Below, one piece after another: positions 13,886 to 18,972 of a stretch of 52,359 nt of DNA. The stretch lies in the NCBI RefSeq assembly GCF_000381045.1, contig NZ_KB905739.1:1-52359 (forward strand). Reading direction: 5' to 3'. The stretch's first letter is position 1; every line of letters starts with the position of its first letter. The DNA is from Thermus scotoductus DSM 8553. GTDB taxonomy: Bacteria; Deinococcota; Deinococci; Deinococcales; Thermaceae. The notes beneath the pieces were generated by a model. It saw nothing but the letters and a program-made list of their open reading frames with translations, had not been told where the DNA came from and did no database searches. A program made the translations under genes and the position numbers.

Positions 13886-13914
13886 TTGCGCTCATGGGAA
13901 AACCGTGGTAGGAT
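13886..13914 (+). promoter_or_regulatory. Promoter in front of the candidate structured RNA
   Basis: TTGCGC (13886-13891), exactly 17 bases, then TAGGAT (13909-13914). The expected start is near 13921, which is the first base of a long self-complementary region and 120 bases ahead of the next gene. Confidence 0.65.
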
Positions 13915-13920
13915 AGCCCC

Positions 13921-14009
13921 GCCCAAAAGGGCTACGTGGAGAAGACCTATCCCTTCCCCCACTGCTCCCCAGGGAGCGGTGGGTTATAAACATTCTCACC
14001 CCCTTGGGC
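13921..14009 (+). ncRNA. Candidate structured RNA or 5' leader of unknown class
   Basis: The 180-base gap between folB and the NYN gene folds into three nested helices. GCCCAA (13921-13926) pairs with TTGGGC (14004-14009). GTGGAGAA (13936-13943) pairs with TTCTCAC (13993-13999), with one bulged G. A 12-position stem CCCACTGCTCCC / GGGAGCGGTGGG (13958-13983, one G-U pair) caps the structure. The internal loops are a pyrimidine-rich stretch on one side and TTATAAACA on the other. A competing GCCC/GGGC hairpin exists at the 5' end. With a good promoter at its edge it could be a free small RNA or a regulatory leader. No known class was recognised. Confidence 0.5.
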
Positions 14010-14044
14010 TAAACTGAAGGAGCCCGGCAAGGGGCGGGTCTATT

Positions 14045-14590
14045 ATGGAAAGGGTAGCAATATTCATTGACGGCTCCAACCTGTACAAGGGGTTGGTGCA
14101 GCACCTAGGGGCGGATTATCGGCTAAACTTCGTGGAGTTTATCAGCCTTCTCACCGCTGGGCGCAGGCTTTTGCGCGCCTACTACTACAACGCCCCCCTC
14201 CCTCCGGAAGACCCGGCTGCCAAGGCCCACCAGAGCTTTCTCAACTACCTGAAGCGGGTGCCCTATGTGGCCGTGCGCCTGGGAAGGCTGGAAAGGCGGG
14301 CGGATGGCTTCGTGGAAAAGGGGGTGGATATCCAGATCGCCATAGACATCCTGCGCCTGGCCTATGCCGACGCCTATGACGTGGCGGTGCTGGTCTCCGG
14401 GGATGGGGACTTCGCCGAGGTGGTCAAGGTAGTCCAGGACATGGGCAAGCAGGTGGAGAACACCACCTTCCACGCCCTTTCCTCCCACCGCCTGGCCCAG
14501 CAGGCGGACCGCTTTTATCCCCTGGACGACTTCCCCTGGGAGCGCCTCCGGGCGCAGAGCCTGCCCCAGGCCCCCGAAAGCGGCGAGTAA
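14045..14590 (+). CDS. NYN-domain (LabA/DUF88-type) predicted nuclease
   Basis: The 181-residue product starts MERVAIFIDGSNLYKGLVQH. The conserved acidic residues of the PIN-like NYN fold are visible: IDGSN (Asp 9, Asn 12), KGVDIQIAIDILRLAY near residue 97, and VSGDGDFAEVV near residue 118. Family knowledge suggests a metal-dependent ribonuclease or RNA-processing role. TAAACT at 14010-14015 gives a possible private promoter with a 23-base leader containing GGGGCGGG. The unusual structured region directly upstream could also be its 5' leader. Confidence 0.85.
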   Translation: MERVAIFIDGSNLYKGLVQHLGADYRLNFVEFISLLTAGRRLLRAYYYNAPLPPEDPAAKAHQSFLNYLKRVPYVAVRLGRLERRADGFVEKGVDIQIAIDILRLAYADAYDVAVLVSGDGDFAEVVKVVQDMGKQVENTTFHALSSHRLAQQADRFYPLDDFPWERLRAQSLPQAPESGE

Positions 14591-16050: not shown

Positions 16051-16095
16051 TGCTTTGGGTTGCTTGGCCCGGAGGGCCAACACATGGAGGGCGCC

Positions 16096-18972
16096 ATGCG
16101 CTTTGAGAAAATCGCCCCCTACACCTACCGCATCCCCCGGCAGGGGAAGATGCGGGTGGATGCGGTATTTTTCGCCTCGGAGGAGATCTTAAAGGACCTC
16201 GAGGGGGAAAACTACGCCTCCTTACAGCAGCTCATGAACGTGGCCACCTTGCCGGGGATCGTGGAACCCGCCCTGGCCATGCCCGACATCCACTGGGGCT
16301 ACGGCTTCCCCATCGGGGGGGTGGCGGCCTTCAACCCCGAGGAAGGAGGGGTGGTGAGCCCGGGAGGGGTGGGTTTTGACATCAACTGCCTTCCTGCCGG
16401 CACCCGCGTACTCTTTCATGACCGCTACACCCGCCCCATAGAGGAGGTGGCGAGGGAACAAGAACCCCTCCTCACCGTGTGGCGGCTTGGGGAAAAAGCC
16501 GAGGCAGGCAAAGCCTTTCTCCTCCTCTCCCGAGAAGCGGAAACCCTGGTGCGCCTCCGCACCGAGGGAGGGTTCATCCTGGAGGCCACCCCCGATCATC
16601 CCGTCTACACCCCCTCGGGAATGCGTCCCATAGGCACCCTGAAAAAGGGAGACCAGGTGGCCGTCCACCCCTTCCAGGGCTTTCCCCACGAACCCCCTCC
16701 GTCCCTGACCCTTCTAAGCGAGGAAAGGGCCCAAGCCCTAGGCCTTGCCCTGGGGTTTCCCCGAGCGGCAGATGTGCTGAAAGAGAAGGGGCTCCTTCCC
16801 CTACAGGCGGACCACCCTCACTTGCCAGCTATCCTACGCCTCTTGGGCTACGCCTTGGGGGATGGAACCCTTTACCGGTCCCGGGGCAGGGGGTACCTGG
16901 TGCTCTATGGGGACGAAGAAGGACTCCTGGAAGCCAAGGAGGACCTTAAGCGTCTGGGCTTCCAGGCTGGGGGCCCTTACGTTCGGGTACGAAACCACAG
17001 CTTCCGAGGACGGACCTTCACCTACCGAGAGGCTAGCCTTAAGGCCTCCTCCCGGGCTTTGTTCCTCCTTCTCCACGCCTTAGGCCTTCCCGAGGGCCCC
17101 AAGGCGCAAACGGCTTTTGCCTTACCTCATTGGCTCTTCTTCATTCCCGCTTGGCTTAAAGCCAACTTTTTAGCAGGACTATTCGGAGCGGAGCTCTCCG
17201 CGCCGAAGTGGGTAAGCGGACATGGGTACAACCTCGCCTCTCCTGTGCTCTCCCAGTCCAAACGGAAAAGCCTTTTGGGGATTGGCCGGACCTTCATGGA
17301 AGATCTGGCCCGCTTAATGGAAAGCTTGGGCCTGGAAGTCCAGTCCCTGCGTGAGGAACTGGATTGGGAGGAACCCGCTGATCCTTCCCACCGCTTCAAA
17401 CTGATCCTCCGGAGTACACCGGAAAACCTCAGCCTCCTTTACGAGAGGGTGGGCTATGCCTACGCTCCCCAAAAAGCCTGGCTAGCCCAGGCGGCTGCTT
17501 TCTACCTGCGCCTGAAAAAGGCCCACTTAGAAGCTCGGGAAACCCAGGCCGAGGAGGTCTTGGCCCTACGACAGGCAGGCCTAGGACCAAAACGCATCGC
17601 CGCCACCCTAGGCCTTCCTCGGCGCTTCGTGGAGCGTACCCTTTACGAGAAGCGAGGTGGATTCCGCCCCTGGGGATTTCCCACCTTCCCTGAGTTCCTC
17701 CAAAGGGCCGGCCCCATGCTTTTTGACAGGGTAGTGGCTATGGAAACCGTTCCCCACGGGGGAAGGGTTTACGACCTCTCCATGGCTCATGAGGGACACA
17801 ACTTTGTGGCCGAAGGGTTTGTGGTCTCCAACTGCGGGGTACGCCTTTTGGCCTCCCATCTCACCCTGGAAGACCTTCTCCCCCGCCAACGGGAACTGGC
17901 GGACACCCTCTACCGTCTGATCCCCTCGGGGGTGGGAAGCGAGCGCAAGGACGTGCGCTTCAGCAAAAAGGAGCTCAAGGAAATCCTTAAAGAGGGGGCT
18001 GGCTGGCTCATCCAAAGGGGCTATGGCTACCCCGAGGACCTCCACTTCATCGAGTCGGAAGGCCGCCTGCCCTGGGCCAACCCCGATAAGGTGTCGGAAA
18101 GGGCCTTTGAGCGGGGGGCTCCCCAGATCGGCACCTTAGGAAGCGGGAACCATTTCCTCGAGGTCCAGTACGTGGACCAAATCTATGATGAGGAGGCTGC
18201 CGAGGCCTTCGGGCTTTTCCCCAACCAGATCACCGTCCTCATCCATACGGGAAGCCGGGGCCTGGGCCATCAGGTCTGCCAGGACTATGTGGAGAAATTC
18301 CTTAAAGCCGCCCCCCGCTACGGCATAGAGCTGGTAGACAAGCAGCTGGCCGCAGCCCCCATCCAGAGCCCTGAGGGCCAGGACTACCTCCAGGCCATGG
18401 CCGCCGCCGCCAACTTCGCCTTCGCCAACCGCCAGCTCATCGCCCACTTTGTGCGGGAGGCCTTTGAGGCCGTGGGCTTCCCCCCAAGGGAACATGGCCT
18501 CAGGGTCCTCTACGATCTGGCCCATAACAACGCCAAGTTTGAGGAGCACGGGGGAAGAAGGGTTCTGGTGCACCGCAAGGGGGCTACCCGGGCCTTCGGG
18601 CCGGGAAATCCGGAGATTCCCCTGGAATACCGGCACGTGGGCCAGCCCGTGCTGGTACCCGGGGATATGGGCCGCTACTCCTATGTGCTAGCGGGCACGG
18701 AAAAGGCCATGGCGGTGTCCTTTGGCTCCAGCTGCCACGGGGCCGGACGCAAGATGAGCCGCCACCAGGCCAAGCGGGTGGCCAAGGAGCGCAACCTGGT
18801 GAAGGAGCTTGCGGAAAGGGGCATACTGGTGCGGGCAGCCACCAAGGCTACCGTGGACGAGGAGATGCCCGAGGCCTACAAGGATGTTTCCGTGGTGGTG
18901 GAGGCGGTCCAGGGAGCTGGAATCGGAAAGAAGGTGGCCCGCCTAAGGCCCCTCATCGTGGTCAAGGGATAA
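16096..18972 (+). CDS. rtcB: RNA-splicing ligase RtcB, interrupted by an intein
   Basis: The 958-residue precursor encodes a 476-residue RtcB ligase split by a 482-residue intein. RtcB joins 2',3'-cyclic-phosphate and 5'-OH RNA ends with GTP and Mn2+ in RNA repair and tRNA splicing. Extein signatures are FPIGGVAAFNPEEGGVVSPGGVGFDIN before the intein and CGVRLLASHLTLEDLLPRQR after it. Later come GSGNHFLEVQYVD, HTGSRGLGHQVC, AHNNAKFEEHGGRRVLVHRKGATRAF and a GSSCHGAGRKMSR tail that includes the guanylylated histidine. GGAGG at 16086-16090 fixes the ATG at 16096. The cysteine after the intein is the metal-binding Cys of the active site. Confidence 0.95.
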   Translation: MRFEKIAPYTYRIPRQGKMRVDAVFFASEEILKDLEGENYASLQQLMNVATLPGIVEPALAMPDIHWGYGFPIGGVAAFNPEEGGVVSPGGVGFDINCLPAGTRVLFHDRYTRPIEEVAREQEPLLTVWRLGEKAEAGKAFLLLSREAETLVRLRTEGGFILEATPDHPVYTPSGMRPIGTLKKGDQVAVHPFQGFPHEPPPSLTLLSEERAQALGLALGFPRAADVLKEKGLLPLQADHPHLPAILRLLGYALGDGTLYRSRGRGYLVLYGDEEGLLEAKEDLKRLGFQAGGPYVRVRNHSFRGRTFTYREASLKASSRALFLLLHALGLPEGPKAQTAFALPHWLFFIPAWLKANFLAGLFGAELSAPKWVSGHGYNLASPVLSQSKRKSLLGIGRTFMEDLARLMESLGLEVQSLREELDWEEPADPSHRFKLILRSTPENLSLLYERVGYAYAPQKAWLAQAAAFYLRLKKAHLEARETQAEEVLALRQAGLGPKRIAATLGLPRRFVERTLYEKRGGFRPWGFPTFPEFLQRAGPMLFDRVVAMETVPHGGRVYDLSMAHEGHNFVAEGFVVSNCGVRLLASHLTLEDLLPRQRELADTLYRLIPSGVGSERKDVRFSKKELKEILKEGAGWLIQRGYGYPEDLHFIESEGRLPWANPDKVSERAFERGAPQIGTLGSGNHFLEVQYVDQIYDEEAAEAFGLFPNQITVLIHTGSRGLGHQVCQDYVEKFLKAAPRYGIELVDKQLAAAPIQSPEGQDYLQAMAAAANFAFANRQLIAHFVREAFEAVGFPPREHGLRVLYDLAHNNAKFEEHGGRRVLVHRKGATRAFGPGNPEIPLEYRHVGQPVLVPGDMGRYSYVLAGTEKAMAVSFGSSCHGAGRKMSRHQAKRVAKERNLVKELAERGILVRAATKATVDEEMPEAYKDVSVVVEAVQGAGIGKKVARLRPLIVVKG
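16387..17832 (+). other. LAGLIDADG-containing intein in RtcB
   Basis: The intein begins with Cys (CLPAGTRVLFHDRYT, block A) and has block B as LEATPDHPVYTP (T-x-x-H). It ends with block F/G MAHEGHNFVAEGFVVSN, followed by +1 Cys. Two dodecapeptides mark a homing endonuclease: LLGYALGDGTLY and FLAGLFGAEL, each keeping its acidic residue. A helix-turn-helix-like stretch (LRQAGLGPKRIAATLGLPRR) lies near the end. The penultimate residue is Ser instead of the usual His, though the final Asn is present. All splicing nucleophiles are intact, so splicing is expected, and the endonuclease may be active. Confidence 0.93.

Follow-up and report, generated by a model that had tools for sequence, protein, structure and literature searches.

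Organization of the folB–NYN locus

The window (the whole 52,359-nucleotide stretch of DNA that was analyzed, contig C11 of the 2.07 Mb genome G000) carries, in order on the plus strand, folP, folB, a structured element that is single-copy in the genome, and a gene for an NYN-domain protein. Because the next gene, ndk, lies on the opposite strand, the NYN gene is monocistronic. The congeners used for comparison include named Thermus species. The features of the locus are as follows.

13886..13891, + strand: -35 element TTGCGC, inside the conserved block TCATCTTGCGCTCAT
13906..13914, + strand: extended -10, TGG plus TAGGAT; TGnTAnnnT recurs in the leaders read from Thermus, G028, and g5
13921..13932, + strand: P1 hairpin GCCC-AAAA-GGGC, at the putative transcription start; 92% of cells paired (a lower bound)
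13933..13957, + strand: variable linker ending UAU-n7 before P2; 57% identity, which equals background
13958..13983, + strand: P2 hairpin CCCACTGCTCC-CCAG-GGAGCGGTGGG, the core of the element; 98.6-99.2% paired, with covariation
13984..13998, + strand: TTATAAACATTCTCA, conserved 3' flank of P2 (UAU, then UUCUCA); 84% identity
14010..14015, + strand: TAAACT, -10-like hexamer (TAnAnT), candidate second promoter of the NYN gene
14022..14039, + strand: short hairpin GCCCG..CGGGT with a Shine-Dalgarno-like AAGGGG (14029-14034) in its loop; 95% paired (alignment A2, Thermus only)
14045..14590, + strand: NYN-domain protein, predicted ribonuclease, 181 aa; Pfam PF01936, E 9e-28

A preliminary description of this DNA had placed a promoter, TTGCGC (13886-13891) and TAGGAT (13909-13914) separated by a 17-nt spacer, just upstream of the structured region. 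We confirmed this promoter and found the block to be conserved (82% mean identity within Thermus), with an 11-mer, TCTTGCRCTCA, that is unique in the genome. The description had overlooked the TGG at 13906-13908, an extended -10 that is conserved in the relatives read. In other genera, the block reads TC[AC]CTTGC[GA]CTCA or TCATCTTGC[GA]CTCA and is followed by a TAnnnT -10. By inference, we place the transcription start near 13921, where P1 begins; this would give a leader of ∼124 nt up to the ATG.

Directly before the NYN gene, ∼22-35 nt 5' of the ATG in the genomes compared, there is a -10-like hexamer, which reads TAAACT, TAGACT, or TACACT in Thermus and TATAGT or TATATT in g5 and Calidithermus. 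Its form and position suggest a second promoter; no -35 was recognizable for TAAACT. The UUCUCA in the 3' flank of P2 (TTCTCA, 13993-13998) stays 11-12 nt 5' of the TAnAnT hexamer (14010-14015) across genera even though the distance to P2 changes, as it does with the insertions after P2 in G028 and g5. This spacing is too short for a -35 element.

The prediction that the downstream gene encodes an RNase agrees with the domain search. The PF01936 match scores 98 bits against a cut-off of 24.2, and D9, N12, D95, D120, and D122 are invariant among seven aligned orthologues, consistent with an NYN-domain ribonuclease with acidic active-site residues. The protein is 79-99% identical across Thermaceae genera, and VPA0982 (2QIP) is the closest relative by sequence that has a solved structure. 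A survey of Thermus thermophilus RNases lists 15 putative enzymes; the stand-alone NYN protein is not among them, and the NYN domain is mentioned only in a PhoH-like protein (PMC4229858). The same survey gives Thermus an RNase J and an RNase Y, without RNase E (PMC4229858).

Conserved fold of the element

As first described, the region is strongly self-complementary: its 89 nt have a folding energy of -38.9 kcal/mol (z -3.64), which was matched by 0 of 200 shuffles. The minus strand folds well too (z -2.9), so the z-score alone gives no strand; the strand of the element is set by the conserved promoter.

The originally proposed fold was a nest of three helices, which we scored by counting pairs in 24 distinct sequences. 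The cap hairpin was retained (99% paired), and the outer and middle helices were not. In the outer helix, GCCCAA/TTGGGC, the GCCC part was paired in 83% and the AA part in 62%; the middle helix, GTGGAGAA/TTCTCAC, was paired in 58%, and its 5' arm falls in the linker, which is conserved no more than background. A check for compensatory changes in other Thermus divided the helices in the same way, with the cap passing and the other two failing. The 5' GCCC/GGGC hairpin (13921-13932) had been regarded as a competitor that would break the outer helix; it is instead the conserved form, paired in 92%, a lower bound, as are all pairing counts for P1, because the MAFFT alignment puts P1 in the wrong position in Calidithermus and in three of the Thermus rows. 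The 5' GCCC is fixed while its partner in the outer helix varies without compensation (GAGC, GGGGA, GGAG, CGCG), always in the company of the conserved 5' hairpin. The conserved arrangement is P1 followed by P2 with no nested stack, and the supposed competitor is therefore the standing form.

P1 is a 4-bp hairpin at +1 with 88% mean identity; it is near-invariant in Thermus, which by itself carries little information. Hairpins of different sequence occupy this position in other genera: TTGCCC/GGGCAA in g5 and, in Calidithermus, a long one known in two versions that show compensated pairs (GGAC/GUCC in one, GGGA/UCCC in the other). P2 is 11 bp long here (13958-13968/13973-13983), contains CCACCG/CGGUGG, is flanked by UAU, and has 85% mean identity in Thermus; the 5' UAU (13948-13950) is kept a few nucleotides before it in most genera. 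Across genera, 5 of 10 pairs of P2 have both partners changed (C-G to U-A in four sequences, C-G to A-U, U-A to A-U, A-U to G-C, and C-G to G-C), a count reached by none of 500 shuffles, and sliding the partner strand along abolished the signal. The loop ranges from ∼3 to 15 nt.

Mean pairwise identity within Thermus rises and falls by block: 88% at the end of folB, 58% in the gap before the promoter, 82% in the promoter, 88% in P1, 57% in the linker, 85% in P2, 84% in the 15 nt 3' of P2, 59% in the spacer, 81% in the final 35 nt before the ATG, and 89-92% in the NYN coding sequence. The functional pieces are therefore discrete.

The description had recognized no known riboswitch or small-RNA class, and the comparison with Rfam release 15 agrees: at gathering cut-offs there were no matches in the window, and the element belongs to none of the families. 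The best sub-threshold match in the stretch, tsr31 (18.9 bits versus 50), and several microRNAs were set aside as chance. Taken as a whole, the original interpretation is partly supported: the comparison upholds a conserved, structured RNA that has its own promoter and is linked to the NYN gene, and does not uphold the nest of three helices or the switch based on the outer one.

Distribution and linkage to the NYN gene

A 165-nt query, run against congeneric and related genomes, matched the element in 25 of the 26 other congeners and, weakly, in G028, from a sister genus. The one congener without the element (G001) also has no NYN orthologue. The full range covers Thermus, Calidithermus, and two further genera, plus a reduced form in one genus of another family. 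Two g5 and two Calidithermus genomes carry the promoter block, the start hairpin, and a CCACCG/CGGTGG hairpin followed by nTAT. G039, from another family, has a P2 hairpin between UAU flanks, a -10 of the TGATAGCAT type, and no clear P1; some other-family genomes also have a hairpin 5' of the NYN ribosome site. Of 19 Meiothermus genomes, 13 retain the NYN gene, and the genus lacks the element, which is therefore dispensable. The remaining 6 of the 19 (G029, G034, G035, G036, G069, and G070) have no orthologue of a protein that is otherwise 79-99% identical family-wide.

A covariance model of P1 plus P2 gave one strong match per genome, always at the NYN locus, with scores of 48-81 bits. Run with strict filters on 111 genomes of the phylum, the model found no strong match elsewhere and none in Meiothermus; the element therefore does not behave as an independently moving, free-standing gene. 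Short BLAST matches elsewhere in Thermus and its relatives, where inspected, lay in coding sequence (e.g., pilC-like and permease-like genes).

Wherever the element was found, including Calidithermus and g5, the next gene is the NYN orthologue, and the linkage holds where folB has been replaced upstream. In T. composti, the locus is split over two contigs, one ending with the RNA (the end of L026) and another beginning with the NYN gene (L080).

Several genomes have folB replaced directly upstream of the -35 block, as seen in the flanks in L017, L019, L021, L023, and L076. In genome G010, the replacement is an rve/HTH transposase gene (L005:1606-2727, minus strand) that adjoins the -35 block. 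L005, L023, and L076 share a flank (TCTCAAATGTG..) that ends at one point, a pattern that suggests repeated insertion at one site. The T. composti contig ends both carry TTTGGGGGTA and have inverted ends CCCCCCTTCGG/CCGAAAGGGGGG, and there appears to be an insertion between the RNA and the NYN gene. Such an insertion would be a natural test of leader function.

A proposed leader of the NYN mRNA and alternative readings

We favor, at roughly even confidence, a cis-acting and perhaps autoregulatory leader, carried by the mRNA of the NYN nuclease, whose 5' part is the stretch described here. Sequence comparison supports the promoter, P1, P2, the linkage to the NYN gene, and the conservation that runs, block by block, on to its start codon. 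In all lineages that have the leader, it precedes an RNase-family gene, as expected of an autoregulated RNase leader. Three observations weigh against it: Meiothermus does without the element, the further -10-like hexamer that separates the RNA from the gene would render the leader optional, and P2 of Calidithermus roseus resembles an intrinsic terminator.

Transcription would begin at about 13921 from the extended -10 promoter. P1, placed at the very 5' end of the RNA, should hinder 5'-to-3' decay in an organism equipped with RNases J and Y and lacking RNase E. The long, conserved, UAU-flanked P2 would be the regulatory element, a site either for a protein or for partial termination, that most likely adjusts nuclease expression after initiation. 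By one route, the NYN protein (or another RNase) would bind or cut its own leader; by the other, transcription would terminate in part at P2. A second start at TAAACT could then give basal, leaderless expression. We infer these further elements, namely the second promoter, autoregulation (by analogy), and any effects on decay or termination. The NYN enzyme itself would be the most economical candidate for acting at P2, since the hairpin stays with the gene for this enzyme and with no other. If the enzyme does control itself in this way, the hairpin would be its first natural substrate, and a conserved structured leader fixed to the NYN gene offers a concrete handle on the function of the protein.

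The E. coli rne, rnc, and pnp genes have autoregulated leaders, and the present element resembles them in placing a structured 5' UTR, with a hairpin as a possible target of the gene's own enzyme, before an RNase gene. The enzyme family here, NYN, is a different one, and the likeness drawn is one of architecture. Bacterial mRNAs can also carry 5'-stabilizing hairpins, and P1 would sit exactly at the 5' end. Transcription attenuators, which end in an intrinsic terminator, share the order of promoter, leader, GC-rich hairpin, and gene, and in C. roseus the terminator scan calls P2; unlike in attenuators, there is no T-tract in the window. We saw no antiterminator or leader peptide that was conserved. 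The 11-bp P2 provides the GC-rich hairpin of an intrinsic terminator, and the T-rich tract that should come right after it was absent from the window in a terminator scan, present in C. roseus L066, and absent in L077. Candidate antiterminator pairings differ between genomes. Short frames were seen by eye in some Thermus leaders and had no counterpart in the window, and a leader peptide was not adopted.

The main rival is a separate small RNA of ∼75-90 nt that starts at P1, terminates at P2, and acts in trans or on the NYN product, with the NYN gene transcribed from its own promoter at TAAACT. We consider this possible but distinctly less probable than a leader. The C. roseus P2 with its T-rich tail is called as a terminator, the hexamer varies between genomes in the manner of a -10 (the variants given above), and the putative T. 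composti insertion parts the RNA from a gene that keeps TAGACT. However, P2 is followed in Thermus by the tail CUAUAAACUUU, and the scan finds no terminator in the window; the hexamer has no recognizable -35; the element was not found away from the NYN gene; and the unpaired linker, where a seed would be expected, is at background conservation.

Control at the DNA level alone, with the inverted repeat and the promoter blocks serving as protein-binding sites and the RNA fold incidental, strikes us as unlikely. It would account for conservation beyond the hexamers in the -35 block TCATCTTGCGCTCA and in TTCTCA-11-TAnACT. Against it, other genera have a sequence-divergent hairpin at the same place, and the compensatory changes in P2 together with its variable loop point to RNA; a loop of ∼3 to 15 nt is easier to reconcile with a hairpin in RNA than with a DNA operator bound by protein.

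The preliminary description had read the outer helix as part of a switch, and a riboswitch or structural switch of this kind now seems very improbable. There are alternative pairings on which it could draw: GGGC at 14006-14009 can pair with either 13921-13924 or AGCCC at 14021-14025, and a pairing that involves GCCCG (14022-14026) is available around the ribosome site. But many such alternatives are on offer in GC-rich sequence, the GGGC/AGCCC helix is 80% paired, and the outer and middle helices are not maintained. A riboswitch would be expected to show a covarying ligand core and an alternative fold; two simple hairpins alone are maintained, a conserved unpaired core of riboswitch size is absent, and Rfam offers no match. 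Scarcely credible, finally, is a mere terminator of the upstream folB operon: the hairpin does sit between folB and the next gene, but it lies downstream of a conserved promoter, lacks a T-tract here, and stays with the NYN gene where the upstream neighbor differs.

We found no paper covering this locus or leader in the open-access literature on Thermus small RNAs or transcription starts.

A dispersed repeat with a similar hairpin

Some Thermus genomes contain about 20 or more copies of a ∼103-nt intergenic repeat (TAAGTG...GCCCGAAA...CCCCACCGCGG-GAAA-CCGCGGTGGGG-TACTTA), and others contain none (L152-L165, L166-L195). The present genome has its own copy at G000:C3:48657-48737 (minus strand), and the NYN gene of G003 and that of G025 are each followed directly by a copy.

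The repeat carries a 5' GCCCGAAA and a CCCCACCGC hairpin akin to the leader. Compared with P2 of the NYN leader, the repeat hairpin scored z ∼4 in five of six comparisons, the reference being shuffled sequences in which hairpins are lost. We did not adopt derivation of the repeat from the leader, given the nature of these shuffles and an unrelated coding stretch that scores 30 bits with the covariance model. A dispersed-hairpin regulon, in which the NYN protein would recognize CCACCG/CGGUGG in its own leader and the similar hairpin of the scattered repeat would expose other transcripts to it, is a long shot.

As a separate observation, positions 16060-18972 of the window hold a 970-aa frame for an RtcB-like RNA ligase that is apparently interrupted by an intein (...DINCLPAGTRV to ...VVSNCGVRLL).
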